A stretch of DNA of 64,000 bases, taken from contig NZ_CP035130.1 in the NCBI RefSeq assembly GCF_004101785.1, forward strand, positions 2,232,001-2,296,000, read 5' to 3'. Positions within the stretch are counted from its first letter, which is position 1. Every line of letters starts with the position of its first letter. Source of the stretch: Gudongella oleilytica (lineage in GTDB: Bacteria; Bacillota; Clostridia; Tissierellales; Tissierellaceae). The position numbers and the translations under genes are program-made. A model generated the notes under the pieces. It was not told the DNA's origin. It saw only the letters and a list, made by a program, of their open reading frames with translations, and searched no databases. Below are positions 46,869 through 57,054 of this stretch, in pieces.

Positions 46869-47020
46869 AGTCACACCTCTTCTTTTCTTTCCACTGATCA
46901 CTGCATAATGTGCAAATACAGCTTATTTTATTATAATTCTGCAATAATTTCAACTTAAGTATACAACATTGCCAGCATTATTGCCATATTCAACTGCTTA
47001 TTCCATATCTTAATTAATAA

Positions 47021-47048
47021 TTGACATATGTCCATTTAGGTGTATAAT
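47021..47048 (+). promoter_or_regulatory. promoter with overlapping GACATATGTC palindrome
   Basis: TTGACA (47021-47026), 16-base spacer, TATAAT (47043-47048), 41 bases before the DUF5320 start. A perfect palindrome GACATATGTC (47023-47032) overlaps the -35 box, a good position for a repressor of the ORP-like operon. Confidence 0.75.
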
Positions 47049-47088
47049 AATAATAGATAATAGTTATCAATTAAAAGGAGGGATTTTT

Positions 47089-47406
47089 ATGCCACGTTTT
47101 GATATGACAGGTCCTATGGGCCGTGGAGCAATGACCGGAAGAGGAATGGGTTATTGTGCCAGACCAGCTGTACCTGGGACAGGAAGAGGAGTCGGCTTTG
47201 GTATGGGTATGGGCAGAGGATTTGGATTTGGTAGAGGAGCTGGTTTTGGAAGAGGTCTTGGAAGAAATAGGTTCTGGGGTTATGGCCCTTACCCTTACAC
47301 AGAGGAAGATGATAAGGCTTATTTAAGAGACGAGGTCAGTTTCCTGGAGGAAGAGCTCAAAGCAGCAAAGGAAGCACTCTCAAAATATGAATCACAGGAG
47401 GATTAA
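47089..47406 (+). CDS. DUF5320 Gly/Arg/Met-rich small protein
   Basis: A 105-residue protein of the DUF5320 family. Residues 1-65 are a low-complexity Gly-Arg-Met-Phe tract (MPRFDMTGPMGRGAMTGRGM, then repeated G-F-G-R-G units); residues 75-105 form an acidic coiled coil (YLRDEVSFLEEELKAAKEAL). One Cys at 23. It heads a five-gene operon with NifX-like and MinD-like proteins, its usual company in anaerobes. Function unknown; the coiled coil suggests oligomerisation. The start follows AGGAGGG. Confidence 0.85.
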   Translation: MPRFDMTGPMGRGAMTGRGMGYCARPAVPGTGRGVGFGMGMGRGFGFGRGAGFGRGLGRNRFWGYGPYPYTEEDDKAYLRDEVSFLEEELKAAKEALSKYESQED

Positions 47407-47409
47407 GGG

Positions 47410-47769
47410 ATGCGCATTGGAATACCTGCAGAAGTTAAGGATATCAACGGCCCTGTGAGCAATAACTTTGGAAGAACTCAATATTATTTCATATATGATG
47501 ATTCCAATGAAAATTATGAATTTATTTCAAACGATGCCGCAAACAGCCAAGGGGGTGCAGGTGTTAAGGCAGCCCAACTAGTAGTAGACAGTAAAGCAGA
47601 AATAGTAATAACTCCGCAGCTTGGAGAAAATGCTGCTGCGGTTCTTAACGCAGCAAATATCCAAATATATAAATGCGAAGATGGAACGCTTATGGAAAAT
47701 ATCAAGCTTCTTAAGGATGGCCGTTTAACTCTCTTATCAAGCATCCATAAGGGATACCATGGACACTAA
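47410..47769 (+). CDS. NifX/NifB-type dinitrogenase-cofactor-fold protein (first copy)
   Basis: A 119-residue protein of the Nif-B/NifX-like family (cluster carrier fold, also the fold of the orange protein ORP). It begins MRIGIPAEVKDINGPVSNNFGRTQYYFIYD and has SQGGAGVKAAQLVVDSKAEIVITPQLGENAAAVL. Relatives bind Fe-S, Fe-Mo or Mo-Cu-S clusters. Here the ligand is not known: the only Cys is in YKCEDG. It overlaps the first MinD-like gene by 11 bases. Confidence 0.85.
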   Translation: MRIGIPAEVKDINGPVSNNFGRTQYYFIYDDSNENYEFISNDAANSQGGAGVKAAQLVVDSKAEIVITPQLGENAAAVLNAANIQIYKCEDGTLMENIKLLKDGRLTLLSSIHKGYHGH

Positions 47770-48634
47770 TTTGAAAATTGCAGTACTAAGCGGCAAAGGA
47801 GGCACTGGTAAGACCCTTGTCGCTTCAAATTTGGCAAAAATTGCTAATAGAGCTGTTTATCTTGACTGTGACGTTGAGGAGCCAAACGGCCATCTGTTCC
47901 TTAAAGGACCGGTTTTAGAAGCTTTTGACGTTGATCTGCCAATGCCTGAAGTAAACCTCGATTTATGCGATTACTGCAGGAAATGTGTCGATTTTTGTGC
48001 TTTTAACGCCTTGGCGCTTATTTCAGGTAGAGTCAAGGTCTTCGACAAGATATGCCATTCATGTGGAGGATGTAAAGTAATCTGCCCGCAAAATGCAATT
48101 GAAGAATACAACAAAAATATTGGAAAAATCGAGAGAAGACATTACGATAATGTCGATGTTTATACTGGAATACTTAATCCGGGAGAGGAATCCGGAACAA
48201 GCATAATCAAGAAAATGATGACTACGATCCCATCAGGCTATGAAACTGCCATAATTGACAGCCCTCCGGGAAGCGCTTGTATCGTTATGGATTCTATCGA
48301 AGATGCAGACTATTGCGTTTTAGTGGCAGAGCCAACTACTTTTGGAGCACATAACCTGAGAATGGTCCATGAACTGACGAAGGTCTTTAACAAGCCATGT
48401 GGTGCGGTATTAAATAAGACAAACGGTGAAGAGGACCCTTCAAGAATATACTGTATGGATAATAATGTCCCCATACTGCTTGATATACCATGGAGGAAAG
48501 ACATAAGCGATTATATCGCAGAGGGATCGCTTGTAGTAGAGAAGGATAAAGAATTAAGTGAGTCCTTTGCCGCGCTTCTTGAAAGAATCAGTCAGGAGGT
48601 GCAAAATGAAAAAAATACTTATACTCAGCGGTAA
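47759..48634 (+). CDS. Ferredoxin-containing MinD/Mrp-family ATPase (first copy)
   Basis: A 291-residue P-loop ATPase with deviant Walker A KGGTGKT (residues 15-21), an inserted two-cluster ferredoxin domain (LCDYCRKCVDFCAFNAL; CHSCGGCKVICPQNAI, residues 64-115) and AIIDSPPGSACIVMDSI near 168. These are Orp3/Orp4-like or cluster-carrier ATPases. It starts inside the end of the first NifX gene and overlaps the second ATPase gene, so the five proteins are made together. Confidence 0.9.
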   Translation: MDTNLKIAVLSGKGGTGKTLVASNLAKIANRAVYLDCDVEEPNGHLFLKGPVLEAFDVDLPMPEVNLDLCDYCRKCVDFCAFNALALISGRVKVFDKICHSCGGCKVICPQNAIEEYNKNIGKIERRHYDNVDVYTGILNPGEESGTSIIKKMMTTIPSGYETAIIDSPPGSACIVMDSIEDADYCVLVAEPTTFGAHNLRMVHELTKVFNKPCGAVLNKTNGEEDPSRIYCMDNNVPILLDIPWRKDISDYIAEGSLVVEKDKELSESFAALLERISQEVQNEKNTYTQR

Positions 48635-49475
48635 GGGTGGAACGGGAAAAACGACTCTTTCCAGTGCGCTTATAAGACTTCTGGATGCAAAAGCATATGC
48701 AGACTGTGATGTAGATGCACCAAATCTTCATCTTGTAATGGAAGAAGAAAACGAGCCTCTGAAATCAGATTTCTTGGGATTACCTGCTGCCTACATAGAT
48801 CCTGCAAAGTGCATATCTTGTGATCTATGCAGACAAAACTGCAGATTTGATGCAATCACAAATATCAACGGCTATATAGTAAACGACCATGCTTGTGAGG
48901 GATGCAAAGTCTGTACATTGGTTTGTCCGTCAGATGCAATTGAAATGGTTCCAAGGGTTATTGGTCATTTGAGCCTCTATAAAAATGGGCATGTATTCTC
49001 AACTGCCGAGTTGAAAATGGGAAGCGGGAATTCAGGGCTGCTGGTAACAGAGGTCAAAAAACATCTTTACGTAAACTCAAAGAATGCCGATATTGCAATT
49101 ATCGATGGTTCTCCAGGGATCGGTTGCCCAGTAATCGCTTCCATAAGCGGTGTTGATCTTGTGATATTGGTATCAGAACCCACAATATCTGGATTCAGTG
49201 ATATGGAGAGAATCATAAAAACATCCGAGGGCTTCCCGGCAAAGGTTGCTGTATGTGTTAATAAGTTCGACCTGCATTTGGAAAATACCGAAAAGATAAT
49301 TTCATATTGCAGCGAAAATGGAATTCCATTCGTTGGAACTATACCCTTTGACAAGGATGCATCTTCCCTGATAAACCAAGGTAAAACCCTTGCAGATAAG
49401 GATGGACCAGCGAGGGATTCAATTATTAAAATAATGGAAAGATCAATGAAAATACTAAACGAGGGGGATAACTAA
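48606..49475 (+). CDS. Ferredoxin-containing MinD/Mrp-family ATPase (second copy)
   Basis: A 289-residue paralogue of the preceding gene: Walker A KGGTGKT near residue 9, a ferredoxin insert (CISCDLCRQNCRFDAI; CEGCKVCTLVCPSDAI, residues 64-110), and AIIDGSPGIGCPVIASI near 160. The ATG at 48606 follows CAGGAGGTG; the longer frame lacks a ribosome site. A tandem pair of such ATPases is characteristic of ORP-type clusters, where the two form a heterodimer. Confidence 0.9.
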   Translation: MKKILILSGKGGTGKTTLSSALIRLLDAKAYADCDVDAPNLHLVMEEENEPLKSDFLGLPAAYIDPAKCISCDLCRQNCRFDAITNINGYIVNDHACEGCKVCTLVCPSDAIEMVPRVIGHLSLYKNGHVFSTAELKMGSGNSGLLVTEVKKHLYVNSKNADIAIIDGSPGIGCPVIASISGVDLVILVSEPTISGFSDMERIIKTSEGFPAKVAVCVNKFDLHLENTEKIISYCSENGIPFVGTIPFDKDASSLINQGKTLADKDGPARDSIIKIMERSMKILNEGDN

Positions 49476-49813
49476 TGTTGATAGCTATAGCATCAGACAA
49501 CAAGAAGGTTGCTGCTCATTTTGGCCACTGTCAGGCATTTGAGTGTTTCTATATAAAGGATGGTGAGGTAGGAGAGTGGAAAACGATCCCTAATCCAGGT
49601 CACCAACCGGGATTTTTACCCAACTTTCTTCATGAGCAAGGAGTAAAAACTATAATTGCCGGAGGCATGGGACAGAGTGCCGCTAATCTTTTTAATAATC
49701 ATGGAATTGAAGTTGTATCTGGAGCTTCAGGCCCCATATATAAGGTAGCAACAGATTATGTAACTGGAAATTTGAGTACTGGCGGCTCCTTCTGCGAGGA
49801 GCATAATCATTGA
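49475..49813 (+). CDS. NifX/NifB-type dinitrogenase-cofactor-fold protein (second copy)
   Basis: A 112-residue member of the same family as the gene at 47410: MLIAIASDNKKVAAHFGHCQAFECFYI, then GVKTIIAGGMGQSAANLFNNHGIEV. It differs by its Cys and His residues (HFGHCQAFEC and the C-terminal SFCEEHNH), which could hold a metal or cluster. Its start shares one base with the stop of the second ATPase (TAATG). The operon ends at a terminator hairpin 16 bases later. Confidence 0.87.
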   Translation: MLIAIASDNKKVAAHFGHCQAFECFYIKDGEVGEWKTIPNPGHQPGFLPNFLHEQGVKTIIAGGMGQSAANLFNNHGIEVVSGASGPIYKVATDYVTGNLSTGGSFCEEHNH

Positions 49814-49829
49814 AGCCCTCCATGGCTGG

Positions 49830-49858
49830 GCAAAGGACCGTATAAAACGGTCCTTTGC
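49830..49858. terminator. bidirectional terminator hairpin
   Basis: GCAAAGGACCGT - ATAAA - ACGGTCCTTTGC, a perfect 12-bp stem. The T tail is weak on the plus side (TATTTCC). It separates the ORP-like operon from the convergent ligase gene, whose stop touches it. Confidence 0.78.
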
Positions 49859-51183
49859 TATTTCCTGTGTGCAATTATGTTAGGTGCTGTAAAGTAATTG
49901 GTTACACCTGAGATTATATTATCCTTACTAAGTCTAGTGTATAACCCTGAATAACTTTCGTTGTATGAGAATAACCCTACTATTGCCTTAAACTCTTCAG
50001 TTGAAAATCCGGATTCATTAGCCACAAGAAAACTCCTTTTTGGAGGGTCGACAAACTCCTGGAAGAGATAGTCCCTGTCGAAAGCCACTCTTACGACCCT
50101 TTCCCAGGACTCCTGGCTTTGATCCTTTCCGACAAAGACACCTTGTGATGCATTCATATCCATTGGCTTAATGATGTAATTATTCTTGTTCTCTATCACC
50201 TCACTTAGAATACTCTCTTCTCCGCCCAGAACTCCTGTAAACGGGATATGCTCCTTGATGAATTTTCTTTCCTCTTCAGTTAAAAACTCTTGAGTATCTT
50301 CGTCGTGGAGCTTCTTGAAGTAAAGCTTATTATGGATGATCTGGCTTCTAATTGTACCAATAGTACACATGGCATCCGCCATATAGGCTTCAATAAAATC
50401 AGGTATCTCTTCAGCTTTTTGGATCAACTCAAAAGTCACTATCCTTCTGTATACCAGATCAATTTTGTAATCCTCTTTGAAGAGCTCTCCTTCTCTAAAC
50501 ACAAGCTCCCGTGGATCTACTATGATGCATTGAAGTCCAAGTCTTTCATAAGCCCTTTGAAACTCAACAAATTCTGCCAAAGTGCCGCTTTCAGTGAAAT
50601 CAACTATAGCCACGTTAGGGTCGTGATCCCTGCCCTTCCACCTTCTATACAGCTTAAGGCTTTCCCTGACCCAGGAATCAATAAGCTCTCTGTTTATTAG
50701 GAAATATTCTTCCCCAAATTCCTTCAAAGCCTTTGATTCAAGTAAAATCCTTGCCAGAGTATTGTCCTCGTTCATAGCCGAAGAGCCGTCGGTATTTAGC
50801 TCACAAAGTTTATAATCTCCAATATCATTGAAAAATATGTCGAATCTTCCGATGGGCGCATGGATCCCGTATTTATTCTCCCTCAGGATCATATCTTCTA
50901 TGAACCTGGGATACCCAAAGCTTTTTCTATACTCCGGATCCTCTATGAACCTATCCGTTACCTTATTTCCAATGATGATTATCCCTTTTACGATTCCTTT
51001 GAAATACTCCTCTTCCTCTGGTGTGAAAAACATCGGGTTGAAAAGAAAAGGAACCGGCTTACCTTTGTATTTAGCGTTGGAATCCGCAACTCGCTTAACA
51101 GTCTCCTTGTAATCCTCAAGATAGGATCCTTGGTTTCTTAAGACCTTCTCATGGTAGCTTCTGTTGATGTCGGTACCCTTCAA
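49858..51183 (-). CDS. Glutathionylspermidine-synthase-like ATP-grasp ligase
   Basis: A 441-residue protein of the circularly permuted ATP-grasp type. YKLCELNTDGSSAMNEDN near residue 130 and NNYIIKPMDMNASQGVFVGKDQ near 335 are the phosphate- and metal-binding blocks. I recognise the fold but not a substrate. It begins 5 bases after a glutamate-cysteine ligase gene, so it probably adds a second amine or amino acid to gamma-glutamylcysteine, as a non-standard glutathione synthetase would. That role is inference. Confidence 0.75.
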   Translation of the reverse strand: MKGTDINRSYHEKVLRNQGSYLEDYKETVKRVADSNAKYKGKPVPFLFNPMFFTPEEEEYFKGIVKGIIIIGNKVTDRFIEDPEYRKSFGYPRFIEDMILRENKYGIHAPIGRFDIFFNDIGDYKLCELNTDGSSAMNEDNTLARILLESKALKEFGEEYFLINRELIDSWVRESLKLYRRWKGRDHDPNVAIVDFTESGTLAEFVEFQRAYERLGLQCIIVDPRELVFREGELFKEDYKIDLVYRRIVTFELIQKAEEIPDFIEAYMADAMCTIGTIRSQIIHNKLYFKKLHDEDTQEFLTEEERKFIKEHIPFTGVLGGEESILSEVIENKNNYIIKPMDMNASQGVFVGKDQSQESWERVVRVAFDRDYLFQEFVDPPKRSFLVANESGFSTEEFKAIVGLFSYNESYSGLYTRLSKDNIISGVTNYFTAPNIIAHRK

Positions 51184-51187
51184 AAAA

Positions 51188-52474
51188 TCACCTCCTGAGA
51201 ATTGCCCAATCTATTGCATTTCTCCTGTCTCCTTCTTTATACAGCTCCTTAGTAAGAAGGTATGGATTCTTTCCCTCCTCCAAAAGCCTTTCCAAAGGCT
51301 CGATGTATACAGCTTCGTTATTCAGGACACTTTTTGACATCTGCGTCATCCATTTACCTATATCAAGGATCGTCCTGCCATTTAGCCTTGCTTCCATACC
51401 TTTTTCAAGTAGCTCCAGCTTCGAAGCGACTACATCCTCTGCCTTTATGGTCTTTGAGAAATCGTACAGCTCATTAAGATTGGATTCGCTGTAGAATAGA
51501 CCCTTTACGAGAGCTACAGCAGCTAAATTCAGTGGATAGGGTATCGAGTCCATCATCCTTATCTCAATATACCTCTTTGTTCTCGCATCCGGGAAAAACA
51601 TAGTCATGAGATGCTCAAGCTCTTCAGTACTTGTAGAATCTGGATCCAGGATATCCGATATCCTGGCTTCGCCAGTAGGTATTATTTTCCCACCTCTAAT
51701 TGTGAAAATTGGGGGTCTTTCAAGCAGATATCCGGCGTACCCCGCGTAAGAGAAATCATCCTCCAACGCTTCCTCTACTGTACCAGCCCTTTCATTATCA
51801 CAATTCATCCAAACATAGGCTCTGAGATTATGTGTTTTACATGGCTCACCCTCAAAGAAAAGAGCATTTTCAAAGAGTCCATAAAAGACAGGAGCAAGAG
51901 CATTCAACACCCTGAACTTCCTGGAGTAGTCCAATTCATTTGAGTAATCAATTGATACCTGAAATGCTCCGGTCCCTTTCATCATGTTGTGGGCGTGAGA
52001 GCCCTTCTTCTTGAAGTGCTCAAACATCAGGTCATAACGCTTCTTAGGAAGCAGTTTTATCTCCTCGATCCTGGTAACCGGATGGTACCCCAGTGAAACC
52101 AATAGCTGTCCTTTCTTCTCCAAAACAGGCAGCAGCTCCTCCAAAAACCCAAGATAGCTTTTCTCGATATCTTCTATCCTTTTCTTTGCTCCGATGCTTA
52201 TCTCAAGCTGACTCCCAGGCTCAAGGGTCAGGCTTAGGTCATCCTTCTCGAGCGCCAGAAGATAATCGCCCTCATATCTACCCTCCCAACCGCCACTCAT
52301 GAGATCCTTCAAGGTGGATTCAACGCCAGCATCTCCATAATAAGATACTGTTTTAAAGGTATCCTTCCAAATTACGAAGTGTTCTATCTCAACCCCCAGC
52401 TTGAAATCCTCAACCACTTTCTCACCGCTTCTGATTAAATCTGTTATCAATTTTATTTGCCTGTTTTTGTCCAT
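51188..52474 (-). CDS. GCS2-type glutamate-cysteine ligase family protein
   Basis: A 428-residue member of the GCS2 (plant/alpha-proteobacterial and EgtA) ligase family. GVEIEHFVIWKD near residue 27 and LTLEPGSQLEISIGAKK near 80 form the glutamate site; MMKGTGAFQVSIDYSNELDYSRKFRVLNALAP near 165-195 and TKRYIEIRMMDSIPYPLN near 310 are conserved. It should join glutamate and cysteine (or a similar amine) using ATP. It is unlike the GshF fusion usual in Firmicutes. First gene of a two-gene operon with the ATP-grasp ligase. Confidence 0.88.
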   Translation of the reverse strand: MDKNRQIKLITDLIRSGEKVVEDFKLGVEIEHFVIWKDTFKTVSYYGDAGVESTLKDLMSGGWEGRYEGDYLLALEKDDLSLTLEPGSQLEISIGAKKRIEDIEKSYLGFLEELLPVLEKKGQLLVSLGYHPVTRIEEIKLLPKKRYDLMFEHFKKKGSHAHNMMKGTGAFQVSIDYSNELDYSRKFRVLNALAPVFYGLFENALFFEGEPCKTHNLRAYVWMNCDNERAGTVEEALEDDFSYAGYAGYLLERPPIFTIRGGKIIPTGEARISDILDPDSTSTEELEHLMTMFFPDARTKRYIEIRMMDSIPYPLNLAAVALVKGLFYSESNLNELYDFSKTIKAEDVVASKLELLEKGMEARLNGRTILDIGKWMTQMSKSVLNNEAVYIEPLERLLEEGKNPYLLTKELYKEGDRRNAIDWAILRR

Positions 52475-52489
52475 GATTCATCTCCTATG

Positions 52490-53662
52490 CTAAAAGTCAA
52501 TATCAAGTATAATTCTGCATTTTGTATCTTCGATTTCACTCTCTATGAGATTTTCCAGCTCTTTTCGAACTTCCTCATGAGTCTTCCCCTTTTCAAGCAT
52601 ACCAGCCCTTACTACTGCGTGAAACTCGATAAGGGTTGCCTCCTCATAGCCTGAAATATGAAAGTCATGGATAGACTTGACCCTTTCATCCTCCTGGATT
52701 ATCCTTTTTACTCTATTTCTAAGCTCATACCTCTCCTTAGTCTCGGTTCCAAGGGGGTCCATATGGATAACGAGAGTAAGGTCATATCTCTCACCGATTT
52801 CTCTTTCAGCTTTATCAATGACCTCATGGATAGTGACAGCGTCGATATTGCCAGGGAACTCAACGTCAATCGTAGCCATAGACCTTCCTGCACCATATGA
52901 ATGAACGATCAAGTCATGAGCACCTGTGATAAAATCATAGGTCATGATATCGTCATAAATTGCGTCAGTAATTTCCTCAGGAGGTGCCTCCCCCAATAGA
53001 GGACTTACAGTTTCCCTTACCAAGGAATATCCTGCATATATTATGAAAAGCGAAACAACAAGCCCAACAATTCCATCAACTGGGAGGTCTGTAAACTGAC
53101 CTGCTACGATTGAAAGTACCACTACAGAGGTTATCAGCACATCTCCAAGTGCATCCGTAGCCGTCGCCTTGAGACCTGATGAGTTGATTTTATTTCCAAG
53201 ATCCCTGTTGAATATGCTCAACCATACCTTGAAGAGAATGGAAATACCTAAAATTATAAAAGGGATAAGCTGAAATTCAACTGGTTCAGGATCGATTATC
53301 CTTTCGTAGGAGGATCTGATAAACTGAAGTCCCACCAAAATAACCATAAAAGCTACTATCAGTGCGGAAACATACTCCATCCTTCCATGCCCGTAAGGGT
53401 GTTCCTTATCAGCCGGTATACTTGAAAGCTTGAATCCAAGCAATGTGACAACCGAGGAGGCTGAGTCCGTAAGATTGTTGACCCCGTCAGCAATAACGCC
53501 GATAGAGGATATAAGTATTCCTATAGAAAGCTTTGTCAAAGCAAGGATGAGGTTGATAACTATCCCCACAGTGCCTGCAAGATATCCCACCTTCAGCCTT
53601 ACATGCCTGTTGCCATAGTCCCTGTTGTCCTTTAACGCAAGAGATAACAACCAATTAGTCAT
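52490..53662 (-). CDS. Cation diffusion facilitator (CDF) metal exporter
   Basis: A 390-residue CDF protein with six membrane helices and a long cytoplasmic tail. Transport-site residues are in IADGVNNLTDSASS (helix 2, with the Asp pair) and ATDALGDVLITS (helix 5); HPYGHGRMEYVSA is the family loop. The tail (residues 215-390) carries two ferredoxin-like regions instead of one, making it longer than the usual 300. Helix 2 DxxxD-like and helix 5 DALGD suggest Mn2+, Fe2+ or Zn2+. It lies 15 bases upstream of the GCS2 gene on the same strand and may be co-transcribed. Confidence 0.9.
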   Translation of the reverse strand: MTNWLLSLALKDNRDYGNRHVRLKVGYLAGTVGIVINLILALTKLSIGILISSIGVIADGVNNLTDSASSVVTLLGFKLSSIPADKEHPYGHGRMEYVSALIVAFMVILVGLQFIRSSYERIIDPEPVEFQLIPFIILGISILFKVWLSIFNRDLGNKINSSGLKATATDALGDVLITSVVVLSIVAGQFTDLPVDGIVGLVVSLFIIYAGYSLVRETVSPLLGEAPPEEITDAIYDDIMTYDFITGAHDLIVHSYGAGRSMATIDVEFPGNIDAVTIHEVIDKAEREIGERYDLTLVIHMDPLGTETKERYELRNRVKRIIQEDERVKSIHDFHISGYEEATLIEFHAVVRAGMLEKGKTHEEVRKELENLIESEIEDTKCRIILDIDF

Positions 53663-53726
53663 AGCCTCAACTCCAATATTGATTCATTCCATTATTTCTA
53701 CCCATTCAAGCGCCTGTCAAAACTAA

Positions 53727-53751
53727 AAGCCTCGCAAACTCAGCGAGGCTT
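53727..53751 (-). terminator. terminator after hcp
   Basis: AAGCCTCGC - 7 bases - GCGAGGCTT, a perfect 9-bp stem, followed by TTAGTTTT on the minus strand. It lies 11 bases after the hcp stop. Confidence 0.88.
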
Positions 53752-53761
53752 TCAAATATAA

Positions 53762-55423
53762 CTAGTTATTCATGAATATTTCTATGTCGCTCTCAACATC
53801 CTTGATCGTTCCAATACCAAAGGTTTCAACAAGAACCTTTGCAACATTTGGAGAGAGAAAAGCTGGCAGCGTAGGTCCCAAGTGTATATTCTTGACTCCA
53901 AGGTATAGAAGGGCAAGAAGTACTATAACTGCCTTCTGTTCATACCATGCAATATTGTACGCTATAGGAAGCTCATTTATATCATTGAGCTGGAATATTT
54001 CCTTAAGCTTCATTGCTATGACTGCAAGAGAATAAGAGTCGTTGCATTGACCGGCATCCAGAACTCTTGGGATACCCCCGATATCTCCAAGATTAAGCTT
54101 ATTGTATCTGTACTTGGCACATCCTGCAGTCAGGATCACAGTATCCTTAGGAAGTGCTTCAGCAAAATCAGTGTAGTAGCTCCTACCATTCTGTCTACCG
54201 TCACAGCCTGCCATTACAAAGAATTTTTTAATGGCTCCTGATTTTACTGCATCAACTATCTTGTCGGCCAGAGCAAATACCTGGGCATGCGCGAATCCAC
54301 CTACTATTTTCCCTGTTTCTATCTCAGTTGGTGCAGGCAGTCTTTTTGCATGCTCAATTATCTCTGAAAAGTCCTTGGCCTTTCCAGCTACTCTGTCGGG
54401 GATATGTTTAAACCCAGGATACCCTGATGAACCAGTTGTATAAACCCTGTCAGTATACTCTCTCTTTGGAGCCACTATGCAGTTTGTAGTAAAAAGTATT
54501 GGCCCATTGAATTTTTCAAACTCCTCTCTCTGCTTCCACCATGCATTGCCATAATTTCCTACGAAATGGTCGTATTTCTTGAATGCCGGATAGTAGTTTG
54601 CAGGAAGCATTTCTCCGTGGGTATAAACATCCACCCCTGTACCCTCCGTCTGCTCCAGCAGCTCTTCAAAGTCCTTCAGGTCATGTCCGGATACAAGTAT
54701 TGCAGGGTTGCTTTTTACTCCGATATTTACCTCAGTGATCTCTGGATTGCCATAAGTGCTCGTGTTGGCTTTGTCCAGTAGAGCCATTGTAGTGACTCCA
54801 TATTTTCCTGTCTCCATAACAAGTTCAATAAGCTCTTCTGCAGTTAAGGAATCATCCGTAGTGGCATTAAGAGCCCTTCGAATAAACCTTGATACCTCAG
54901 GATCCTCGTAGCCAAGGTTCCCGGCATGCTCAGCGTAGGCAGCCATGCCCTTTAAACCATAAATGATCAATTCTCTTAGGGATCTTACGTCCTCATCATA
55001 AGCTGCAAGAACTCCAACCTCCGGAGCAACAGATTTGAATACAATGTCGTCATTTGAGTCTACACTAAAGGATGCTGGATCTTTAAGGTCAGATAAGTCA
55101 ATGCCCTTTTCAGACAGTTCCTTCTTTAATGAGTCCCTTCCAGCCAAAGCTTCTTTGATCTTTACAAAAAATCTGTCGCGATCGAAGTTTGCATTTGTAA
55201 TGGTCATGAACAAACCATCAATTATTGACCTGTCTAATCCTGCAACGACTATACCTGCATCATCTGCCTTTACTCCGACCTGTGATAAGCCCTTCAATGC
55301 ATATATCATCAGGTCTTGCAGATTTGCTACCTCACTAGTCTTGCCGCATACACCTACCTGTGTGCATCCCTTCCCATTCAAGGCTTCCTGACACTGGAAG
55401 CAAAACATCTTTCTGTCAGTCAT
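53762..55423 (-). CDS. hcp: Hydroxylamine reductase / hybrid-cluster protein
   Basis: A 553-residue class I/II hybrid-cluster protein. The N-terminal cluster motif is [23 protein letters not shown] (residues 6-28, C-x2-C-x8-C-x5-C). Hybrid-cluster ligands lie in [32 protein letters not shown] and [11 protein letters not shown]. Hcp reduces NO to N2O and hydroxylamine to ammonia and protects anaerobes from nitrosative stress. The ATG at 55423 is chosen from family alignment; the frame is open 33 codons further, but that would pass through the operator. It has GGAGG 11 bases upstream. Confidence 0.96.
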
Positions 55424-55477
55424 AGTAAAGCCATCCTCCTGTATATCGTTAATATTTTTACAAAACTCACAAGCACT

Positions 55478-55519
55478 ATTATATTTGGACAGCTGAGATT
55501 TTGCCGTAACATATGTTAC
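55478..55519 (-). promoter_or_regulatory. hcp promoter with HcpR-like operator centred at -41.5
   Basis: GTAACATATGTTAC (55506-55519) is a perfect 14-bp palindrome. A minus-strand TATAAT at 55478-55483 predicts a start at 55471, placing the palindrome centre exactly at -41.5, the class II activator position of CRP/FNR-family regulators. No -35 box is present. A related GGTAACAAATGTTACC lies before the operon at 59 kb. Confidence 0.83.
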
Positions 55520-55560
55520 CAAACAATAAATAGTTGTAAGGGGAAAGCAAGGATAAAAAA

Positions 55561-55621
55561 AGATTCTGCGCTCACTTCTGGATGACTAAAATTTTGTCAT
55601 ACTGAAGGAAGCGAAGAACCT
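55561..55621. repeat. REP-type imperfect inverted repeat
   Basis: Two 26-base arms (55561-55586 and 55596-55621) inverted across a 9-base AT loop, matching at 20 of 26 positions. The right arm, GTCATACTGAAGGAAGCGAA..., is a degenerate copy of the widespread bacterial repeat GTCATTCTGAGCGAAGCGAA. It lies between the zinc-ribbon gene and hcp. Confidence 0.75.
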
Positions 55622-55650
55622 AACCTATTGCTTGTAAACCATTAATTTCT

Positions 55651-55893
55651 TTAATAATTCTTACCTGCAGCCTTTATCCTTTCAGGGTATGCAACTGAAC
55701 ATGGTGTTACGCCATACACCATATCACAGCTTGGACATTTACCCTCAAGGTGAGTCATCTCAAACTCATTTCCGCATTCTATACATGTTATTAAAACACC
55801 TGGCGGCATAGGTCTTGTATTGAAACCCATAGCTCTTATTTTATCCACTACTGCCTTACCGCTCCCAAAGCTTCCTGTACATCCGTCGTGCAT
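55651..55893 (-). CDS. Small zinc-ribbon-like protein of unknown function
   Basis: An 80-residue protein with two half-ribbons, CIECGNEF and CPSCDMVYGVTPC, giving four to five candidate Zn or Fe-S ligands; another Cys is at residue 5. The preceding MPPGVLITCIECG stretch is beta-strand-like. It starts after TAAGGAGG. Proteins of this kind recur in clostridial genomes without an assigned role. It lies upstream of hcp on the same strand, separated by 227 bases that hold a REP element and the hcp promoter, so it is a separate unit. Confidence 0.72.
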   Translation of the reverse strand: MHDGCTGSFGSGKAVVDKIRAMGFNTRPMPPGVLITCIECGNEFEMTHLEGKCPSCDMVYGVTPCSVAYPERIKAAGKNY

Positions 55894-56049
55894 TATATTT
55901 TCCTCCTTAATTTTCTTAATTTACAATTAGTTTAAAATTGTCAGGGTCGATCTTTCACGTCTTGTAATCTCTAAAATTAACTGTTTGCAGCTTAATAATG
56001 ATATCGTTCTAATGGATTGAACTGATATGAATCATTTAATTGTGAAATG

Positions 56050-57054
56050 TTAATTGTTAATTGTCTTTAATACCTCTCCCTGTCTCAGATTGGTCCTCAT
56101 GGACTGGATAAAGCTATCCATCTTTTCCAGCTCGACAAGAATACTCTTCTCTTCCTCGCTTGTTTCAATTATGGAAGCTATTCCCCCATTTTTTATTATG
56201 ATCCTCTTATCTGCAATAAGGGCAAGAGTCGGATCGTGGGTCGCCATTAGGACTATCTTATCCTCGCTTACAAGCAGATCCAGAGCTTTTCTTCTGTCAA
56301 TGCCTGCATTTTCTATCTCATCTATGAGAACGATCGGCGATGTACTTAGAATTGCTGTATCTGCAATCATGAGAGCTCTCGACTGCCCACCGCTTAAAGC
56401 AGTTACAGGAGTTTCCGGATCAAACTTTTCTCCTGCAAGGCTATTTGCGGCCTGAATTATCCTGTAGATCGTCCCCTCAATATCAACGACCATCCTGCTC
56501 TCAGCATGCAGCTGCAGAAACTCAATTACAGTAAGGTCCATTACGAAATTCATATTCTGAGACAATTGTGCAACAAGCTTGTTGTTTGAGGAAAACCTCC
56601 ATTTTCTGTCCGGCAGCTCTCCATTAATAAGTATACTTCTACCTGTAGGGGTATCACTTTGGGCAGTCCACTCGATGTCTGCCAGAAGCCTTGATTTCCC
56701 TGAGCCGGTAGGCCCGACTATCGATACGATTTCTGAGGCCTTTATGGTAAGCTCATCAAACCCCTCAGGAGATCCCGACTTATCCCTACCAGGCAATATG
56801 GTAAGGGTCCTGACACTTGTTTCCTCCTTGATCCCGAGAAAGCTTTTCATCTGCTCGACGAATACCTCCAGACCTTCCATCAAACCTGCTTTGTCCATAG
56901 CAAGGTTTTCAATCTCTTCAGGAGAGAATTCATCGAGGATCTCCTCCAGATCCATATTTTCTTTCCCTTCAGGATCCAGCTTATTCTCTATCATCCATCC
57001 CATCACGAATGGATAGCTTTCAATCAGTTTTCCAAGCTTAGTTTTTCTATGCAT
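56050..57054 (-). CDS. ABC-type ATPase with a DUF1858-like N-terminal domain
   Basis: A 334-residue cytoplasmic protein. Residues 1-70 (KLGKLIESYPFVMGWMIENKLDPEG, then EEILDEFSPEEIENLA) look like the helical DUF1858/ScdA-N type domain. Residues 85-334 form an ABC ATPase: GPTGSGKSRLLAD near 117, LSGGQSRALMI near 218, PIVLIDEIENAG near 240 and switch His in ATHDPTL. It has no membrane segment and no permease neighbour. The ATG at 57054 follows GGGTGATG. Third gene of the cassette; the gene upstream overlaps it by 8 bases. Confidence 0.8.
   Translation of the reverse strand: MHRKTKLGKLIESYPFVMGWMIENKLDPEGKENMDLEEILDEFSPEEIENLAMDKAGLMEGLEVFVEQMKSFLGIKEETSVRTLTILPGRDKSGSPEGFDELTIKASEIVSIVGPTGSGKSRLLADIEWTAQSDTPTGRSILINGELPDRKWRFSSNNKLVAQLSQNMNFVMDLTVIEFLQLHAESRMVVDIEGTIYRIIQAANSLAGEKFDPETPVTALSGGQSRALMIADTAILSTSPIVLIDEIENAGIDRRKALDLLVSEDKIVLMATHDPTLALIADKRIIIKNGGIASIIETSEEEKSILVELEKMDSFIQSMRTNLRQGEVLKTINN

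Follow-up and report, generated by a model that had tools for sequence, protein, structure and literature searches.

What is synthesized by two adjacent ligase genes of Gudongella oleilytica was the question raised by a stretch of 64,000 nucleotides of its genome (NZ_CP035130.1, forward-strand positions 2,232,001 to 2,296,000), which is called the window below. The two genes encode a plant-type glutamate-cysteine ligase (GCL) of the GCS2 family and a circularly permuted ATP-grasp ligase of the GSP_synth family, respectively, and an earlier account made from the DNA letters (the sequence-only reading) had proposed that they form a non-standard thiol pathway. The pair is regarded here as a glutathione-type pathway with a previously unrecognised second enzyme. 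That the two genes form a complete operon of this type, with glutathione itself as the product, is given a probability of roughly 0.53; that the product would be some tripeptide of gamma-Glu-Cys and an amino acid is likely, and that the pair is real and functionally coupled is nearly certain.

In the proposed pathway, the gamma-carboxyl of glutamate would be joined to cysteine by GCS2 with the use of ATP, giving gamma-Glu-Cys. The cysteine carboxylate of gamma-Glu-Cys would be phosphorylated by the ATP-grasp ligase, and an amine, most likely glycine, would attack the activated carboxylate to give glutathione. The ATP-grasp ligase would stand in for the GshF or GshB of other bacteria, and the thiol product may serve metal buffering and export, as well as methylglyoxal detoxification where glyoxalase I is present. 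We infer the substrates, the product and the physiological role of the pair, step 1 from close homology and the chemistry of step 2 from the predicted fold and the residues.

Both open reading frames (ORFs) were found intact on the minus strand, GCS2 at 51188-52474 (428 aa, predicted step 1) and the ATP-grasp ligase at 49858-51183 (441 aa, predicted step 2), as the sequence-only reading had described them. GCS2 lies upstream and is separated from the ATP-grasp gene by 4 bases (51184-51187). The intergenic signal, read directly in the minus strand at 51184-51200, consists of this gap, the Shine-Dalgarno sequence AGGAGG and the GCS2 stop; AGGAGG runs into the TGA stop, an overlap from which translation of the pair is probably coupled, and the start codon of the ATP-grasp gene is TTG, at 51183.

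The coupling of the two genes was estimated in a phylum sample of 299 genomes, with the source genome included in the count of ATP-grasp carriers, and in the best 80 of 471 confirmed relatives from a genome collection scan (the named loci, with carriers including Tissierella, Peptoniphilus, Alkaliphilus, Desulforamulus and Orenia). The ATP-grasp ligase was matched in 22 of the 299 genomes, and 20 of them, from 17 genera and 14 families, were kept; G090 and G147 were left out as distant matches (22-24% identity) with frames of 823-880 aa and no GCS2 within the stretch fetched. All 20 carried GCS2 directly upstream in the same order, one of them as an 864-aa fusion. GCS2 was present in the same locus and order in 69 of the 80 named loci, L081 being a further fusion, and the two fusions were placed in different parts of both protein trees. 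Pairwise distances of GCS2 and the ATP-grasp ligase were correlated with r 0.88 over 84 pairs, the maximum of 1000 permutations being 0.26. These pairs were taken from 100 (the window's own, 19 phylum-sample relatives and 80 named loci) after 11 without GCS2 in the locus, the truncated L115 and four duplicates had been dropped. The earlier claim that the two ligases belong together was borne out by these counts and distances, and the pair is ancient.

No GCS2 was found beside the ATP-grasp gene in the remaining 11 named loci, three of which end at contig edges and eight of which have enough flank. GCS2 was found elsewhere in all ten genomes searched among those 11 (L102 not included), and the solo ATP-grasp gene of the eight loci, considered as a sign of another substrate, was rejected as such because of the GCS2 elsewhere in those genomes. 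L102 (JAGXRF010000025.1, from a Flavobacteriales-labelled metagenome-assembled genome) is a 3-kb contig with a clostridial-type ATP-grasp ligase in a Bacteroidota-labelled bin, possibly by bin contamination.

In the reverse direction, a GCS2 census with the window protein as query (E <= 1e-5, a threshold that distant GCS2 relatives escape) matched 26 of the 299 genomes, six of them without the ATP-grasp ligase. As judged by 31 positions that are invariant in 19 clostridial GCS2 sequences, four of these six proteins are degenerate (10-17 of 31 retained), one is truncated (G272) and one is intact (27 of 31, G222), and intact GCS2 of the pair type was accompanied by the ATP-grasp ligase in 20 of 21 genomes. 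The degenerate GCS2-like proteins (L164:2830-4062, L165:4885-6138 and L166:4720-6018 in three genomes of one family, and L163:4761-5828) look, by their sequences, like pseudoenzymes put to other use. The genes of L164-L166 follow a small zapA-like gene, which is preceded in two of them by a dapF-like gene (labels given by eye).

GCS2 is the sole match of the source genome to Pfam PF04107 (109.7 bits, cut-off 21). Plant chloroplast GCLs were its only significant matches in the PDB, with E about 1e-43 for the single sequence and about 1e-97 for the family profile. Among the 31 invariant positions, 29 are identical in plant GCL (chain 6gmo), the other two being Y130 (F in the plant enzyme) and a gap. 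From this agreement gamma-Glu-Cys is very probably the product of GCS2, and a first step from glutamate and cysteine, as the sequence-only reading had it, can be adopted with high confidence as far as homology goes.

For the second enzyme, the best Pfam match, a marginal one, was GSP_synth (PF03738) at 31.3 bits against a cut-off of 29.3; PF14403 and PF02955 also gave matches, below their cut-offs. A structural model predicted from 19 sequences (mean pLDDT 92.6) gave Z values of about 28-31 to YgiC, YjfC and the E. coli glutathionylspermidine synthetase (GspS, or Gss), and to the human, soybean, potato and yeast glutathione synthetases. Values of 26-28 were obtained with 3n6x, Cp1B, trypanothione synthetase and the T. 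brucei glutathione synthetase, and the next chain reached only Z 12. The top Foldseek match of the model was a mutant structure of human glutathione synthetase (E 8.8e-19), and structural alignment to eukaryotic glutathione synthetase gave VIA Z 29.5 and a root-mean-square deviation of 3.9 over 412 aligned positions. With similar Z values for both groups, the ligase is by its predicted fold equally near GspS/YgiC and the eukaryotic glutathione synthetases. Two large proteins of 822-878 aa, L043:8390-11026 and L044:7830-10298, are weakly similar to the ATP-grasp ligase of the window and have no GCS2 in the fetched stretch; a comparison with NCBIfam at E 0.001 gave no family for either.

The active-site residues were aligned with those of four eukaryotic glutathione synthetases, and conservation was counted over the 84 family sequences. 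Y245-R246-R247 of the S-loop aligns with human Y265-F266-R267, K286 and K339 align with human K305 and K364, and the global mode of alignment pairs R113, D115, E128, N130 and S135 with R125, D127, E144, N146 and S151 of the human enzyme, respectively. All three S-loop residues, a Y-x-R motif, and the seven others are invariant (84/84). In glutathione synthetase, R125 touches the cysteine part and S151 and R267 the glutamate part of glutathione, and in the T. brucei enzyme the S-loop tyrosine orients the arginine that binds the glutamyl carboxylate, as described in passages of PMC2845819. The counterpart of the S-loop is W-K-T in GspS (aligned) and F-K-L in YgiC (read by eye).

Further evidence on the product came from glyoxalase I (GloA), tested against NCBIfam NF050074, with all six proteins tested over the curated cut-off. 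In 4 of the 19 phylum-sample relatives, glyoxalase I sits directly beside GCS2 in divergent orientation, and in a further one, L025, it lies one gene away; it is also an immediate neighbour of GCS2 in Orenia metallireducens. Strong GloA was found in 7/20 pair genomes and 5/279 others (Fisher p 1.3e-6), where strong means at least 159 bits, a value set after the score gap down to 101 had been seen; with the cut-off only, by which the source genome's own gene drops out, the counts were 6/20 and 5/279 (p 1.5e-5). In both tests the genomes are related, and independence is overstated. Some NF050074 match at E <= 0.001 was present in 187 of the 299 genomes, and two of the five non-pair GloA genomes have a GshF-type gene. 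The substrate of glyoxalase I is the adduct that methylglyoxal forms with glutathione, and its association with the pair therefore points to a glutathione-like thiol.

The other thiol routes were searched for in the source genome, a single contig of 2.36 Mb. Neither PF04262 (the type-1 GCL of GshA and GshF) nor GshB (PF02955) nor BshC was matched there, in keeping with the non-standard route of the sequence-only reading, for which a separate GshF would have been the counter-evidence. Of the 20 pair genomes, not one had a PF04262 match, and eight had weak GshB matches (best E 1.9e-10). Bacillithiol as the thiol of the source bacterium was considered and rejected, its genome having no BshC.

Glutathione is the simplest product fitting the glyoxalase link, and it is favoured because the S-loop is of the glutathione-synthetase kind, Asp610 of GspS is not conserved, three pair genomes have no spermidine synthase match and GloA co-occurs with the pair. 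Where the sequence-only reading had offered glutathione or an amine amide as the outcome of step 2, the S-loop and GloA thus incline the choice to the former, and the amide is kept in play by the sequence affinity to GspS/YgiC.

A number of observations weigh against glutathione. Up to E 1 in Pfam, the ATP-grasp ligase matched no eukaryotic glutathione synthetase family. A two-sequence profile of GspS and YgiC matched it with 95-98% (E 1e-12 to 3e-8), profiles built from two glutathione synthetases with 51-86% and from four with 91-97%; as single queries, GspS or YgiC reached 72% and human glutathione synthetase 36% (local mode). A PDB profile search with the ligase matched Cp1B (best), 3n6x, YgiC, GspS and trypanothione synthetase, and no glutathione synthetase up to E 1. 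As far as such profile comparisons tell, the ligase is by sequence nearer GspS/YgiC than the eukaryotic glutathione synthetases. Y-R-R is also present in 3n6x, whose substrate is undefined, so Y-x-R alone is no proof of glutathione synthetase activity. R417 is invariant (84/84), and it was matched to human R450, the residue for the glycine carboxylate, and to GspS R598 by a hand alignment of the hairpin where the program chose another arginine; since its counterpart is also present in GspS and YgiC, glycine and amine are not discriminated by it. For human E214, N216 and Y270 the family offers no conserved equivalent where they align, and the loop facing the nucleophile is variable across the 84 sequences (T/V/H/R/E at 428, G/E/D/N at 429). 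The genomic evidence has its contrary side as well: 13 of the 20 pair genomes have no strong GloA, and the GloA-like gene of the source genome (L141:6781-7164; G000:C1 ~417780) scored 159.6 bits, under the cut-off of 165, and lies far from the thiol operon. Genomes G026, G081 and G227 have a strong glutathione-type GloA and neither the pair nor PF04262. BshC was present in 5/20 pair genomes and, over its cut-off, in 58/279 others, numbers that show no exclusion either way between BshC and the pair. In the open-licence literature, no metabolite or enzyme data were found for any family member.

The alternative that survives best, although unlikely, is that the ligase acts like GspS or YgiC and joins gamma-Glu-Cys to a polyamine or another amine, giving a shortened glutathionylspermidine. 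The GSP_synth match and the profile affinities just given are what would be expected of it, and YgiC and YjfC ranked first by structural Z, in effect level with the glutathione synthetases. A strong match to spermidine synthase was obtained in 14 of the 20 pair genomes, the source included; yet the match is weak in three (G056, G117 and G146) and there is none at all in G095, G177 and G282. GspS Asp610, which recognises the N8-amine of spermidine according to a passage of PMC2702004, was hand-aligned from the conserved arginine with position 429, occupied by G in 26, E in 22, D in 17, N in 7, S in 6 and R in 3 of the 84 sequences. The position is thus acidic in 39/84, and Asp610 has no conserved counterpart in the family; yet trypanothione synthetases also have none, as the same part of that source states. 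Against the amide stand also the Y-x-R of the S-loop, as in eukaryotic synthetases and not W-K-T or F-K-L, and the lack of any amidase family match in the 441-aa ligase (Pfam up to E 1).

Less probable still is a tripeptide that ends in beta-alanine, serine or alanine, as in homoglutathione, and that would be a new low-molecular-weight thiol. The wide variation at positions 428 and 429, in the loop aligned with the amino-acid-facing one of glutathione synthetases, would suit it, and in soybean two residues of this loop have a share in the altered product (PMC5919673, in part). On the other hand, the neighbouring glyoxalase I family is named for glutathione, and nothing positive was found for any given terminal residue. 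Because the sequence is nearer GspS/YgiC and the nucleophile loop varies between lineages, another amine or terminal residue keeps a fair probability. A broader proposal may be put forward tentatively: the pair could make a new low-molecular-weight thiol from gamma-Glu-Cys and a non-glycine amine or amino acid, lineage-dependent through the variable C-terminal loop, that would be a principal redox and metal-buffering thiol in a large set of anaerobic Firmicutes.

It is quite improbable that GCS2 couples glutamate to a substrate other than cysteine and that the ATP-grasp ligase extends that gamma-glutamyl compound. The score of GCS2 against the plant GCL equivalog TIGR01436 (207.5 bits, under the cut-off of 463.15) and its lower-scoring hits to EgtA and to carboxylate-amine ligases of the YbdK type would allow it, but the 29 of 31 shared invariants and the plant GCLs as sole significant PDB matches speak for cysteine, and the GloA link implies a thiol. 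Mere genomic neighbourhood of unrelated ligases, brought together by chance or descent, can be dismissed, for the eight non-adjacent named loci are outweighed by both genes in 10/10 non-adjacent or contig-edge genomes searched, the two fusions in separate clades, the correlated distances and the degenerate or truncated GCS2 in five of six genomes without the partner, and the gene order kept across 14 families excludes chance.

A cation diffusion facilitator (CDF, metal efflux; PF01545 and PF16916) of 390 aa is encoded at 52490-53662 on the minus strand, and its gene stops 15 bases short of GCS2 in the same orientation, with a hybrid-cluster protein gene next beyond it; this is the metal exporter that the sequence-only reading had noticed nearby. 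The CDF gene is the probable first member of a three-gene unit with GCS2 and the ATP-grasp gene. Just upstream of it, at 53691-53720 on the minus strand, the promoter-like TTGACA-18-AATAAT (11 of 12 consensus matches) is at most suggestive of a promoter; promoter-like sites around these positions were not enriched overall (17 against 14.0 in shuffles, standard deviation 4.3). Among the 80 named loci, CDF is directly upstream of GCS2 in eight and directly downstream of the ATP-grasp gene in two others, mostly in close relatives, and among the 19 phylum-sample relatives it was found only in L024. That a metal exporter and glyoxalase I recur near the pair hints at what the thiol may do physiologically.

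Neighbourhoods were clustered over 99 loci, a set in which four repeat named loci. The commonest neighbours, labelled by eye, were an ABC ATPase, an AI-2E-type transporter, a YbaK-like protein, NuoE/NuoF-like proteins and TrkA, and they look like synteny among close relatives. Positions 47000-57000 of the window had no Rfam hit at E 0.1 or below, and in 15 related loci no RNA element was found adjoining the pair, the T-boxes of L028 and L036 being not adjacent. The closest named relatives of the ATP-grasp protein are in Tissierellales-type bacteria (Soehngenia, Gudongella and Tissierella), and the host bacterium is probably anaerobic. On the plus strand, a cluster at 47089-49813 encodes what we take, by eye, to be two ATPases of the MinD/NifH kind, into which cysteine motifs of ferredoxin type are inserted, along with three small proteins, of which one is Gly/Arg-rich and two presumably resemble nitrogenase-cofactor-type domains.

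No paper recognisable as treating the pair of GCS2 and a GSP-type ligase was found in the open-licence literature. Reportedly, gamma-GCS and GS of Clostridium acetobutylicum were the subject of work by Kino in 2007. Glutathione synthesis in Firmicutes is described as GshF or bifunctional gshAB in the portions consulted of PMC4360819, PMC2940859 and PMC7278568, the last of which also mentions GshF-like split genes in methanogens. In the excerpt of a gshA-B survey (PMC6282198), glutathione genes are confined to Cyanobacteria, Proteobacteria, eukaryotes and a single actinobacterium. The operon of GCS2 and the ATP-grasp ligase would be missed by searches for GshA, GshB or GshF, and if the pair is a complete route, thiol surveys would be blind to it in anaerobic Firmicutes.

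Compared with known systems, the pair resembles GshF (GshAB) of Streptococcus and Listeria, and the gamma-GCS and GS of Clostridium acetobutylicum, as a firmicute system whose two ligase steps are encoded side by side or in one fused gene, and differs from GshF in the first ligase, which in GshF is the type-1 GCL of PF04262, absent from 20/20 pair genomes. The ATP-grasp domain of GshF is non-permuted. With E. coli Gss and with YgiC/YjfC, its nearest enzymes by sequence profile, the second ligase shares the permuted ATP-grasp fold (Z 30-31), the Mg/ATP motifs and the counterpart of Arg598, whereas it has a different S-loop, an unconserved Asp610 and a GCL partner; the amidase domain, N-terminal in GspS and absent from YgiC/YjfC too, is lacking. 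Cp1B (PDB 9CJN), from the fungal pathway to E-64 and its best PDB match by sequence, is likewise an ATP-grasp ligase, but belongs to a separate pathway with trans-epoxysuccinate as the acid substrate. Since L-amino acids are taken by Cp1B as nucleophiles (PMC12568646, in part), its branch of the fold is not restricted to polyamines. The GCS2 of the pair is like plant GCL (TIGR01436, PF04107) in its family-invariant residues and profile match, while it is bacterial, far under the equivalog cut-off and probably co-translated with the ATP-grasp ligase. Eukaryotic glutathione synthetase and the second ligase, finally, differ in E214, N216 and Y270, with 11-14% identity in structural alignments, and are alike in the fold and the equivalents of R125, S151 and R267; if the proposed pathway is true, the permuted ATP-grasp fold by which eukaryotes make glutathione would have been recruited once more in this ligase.

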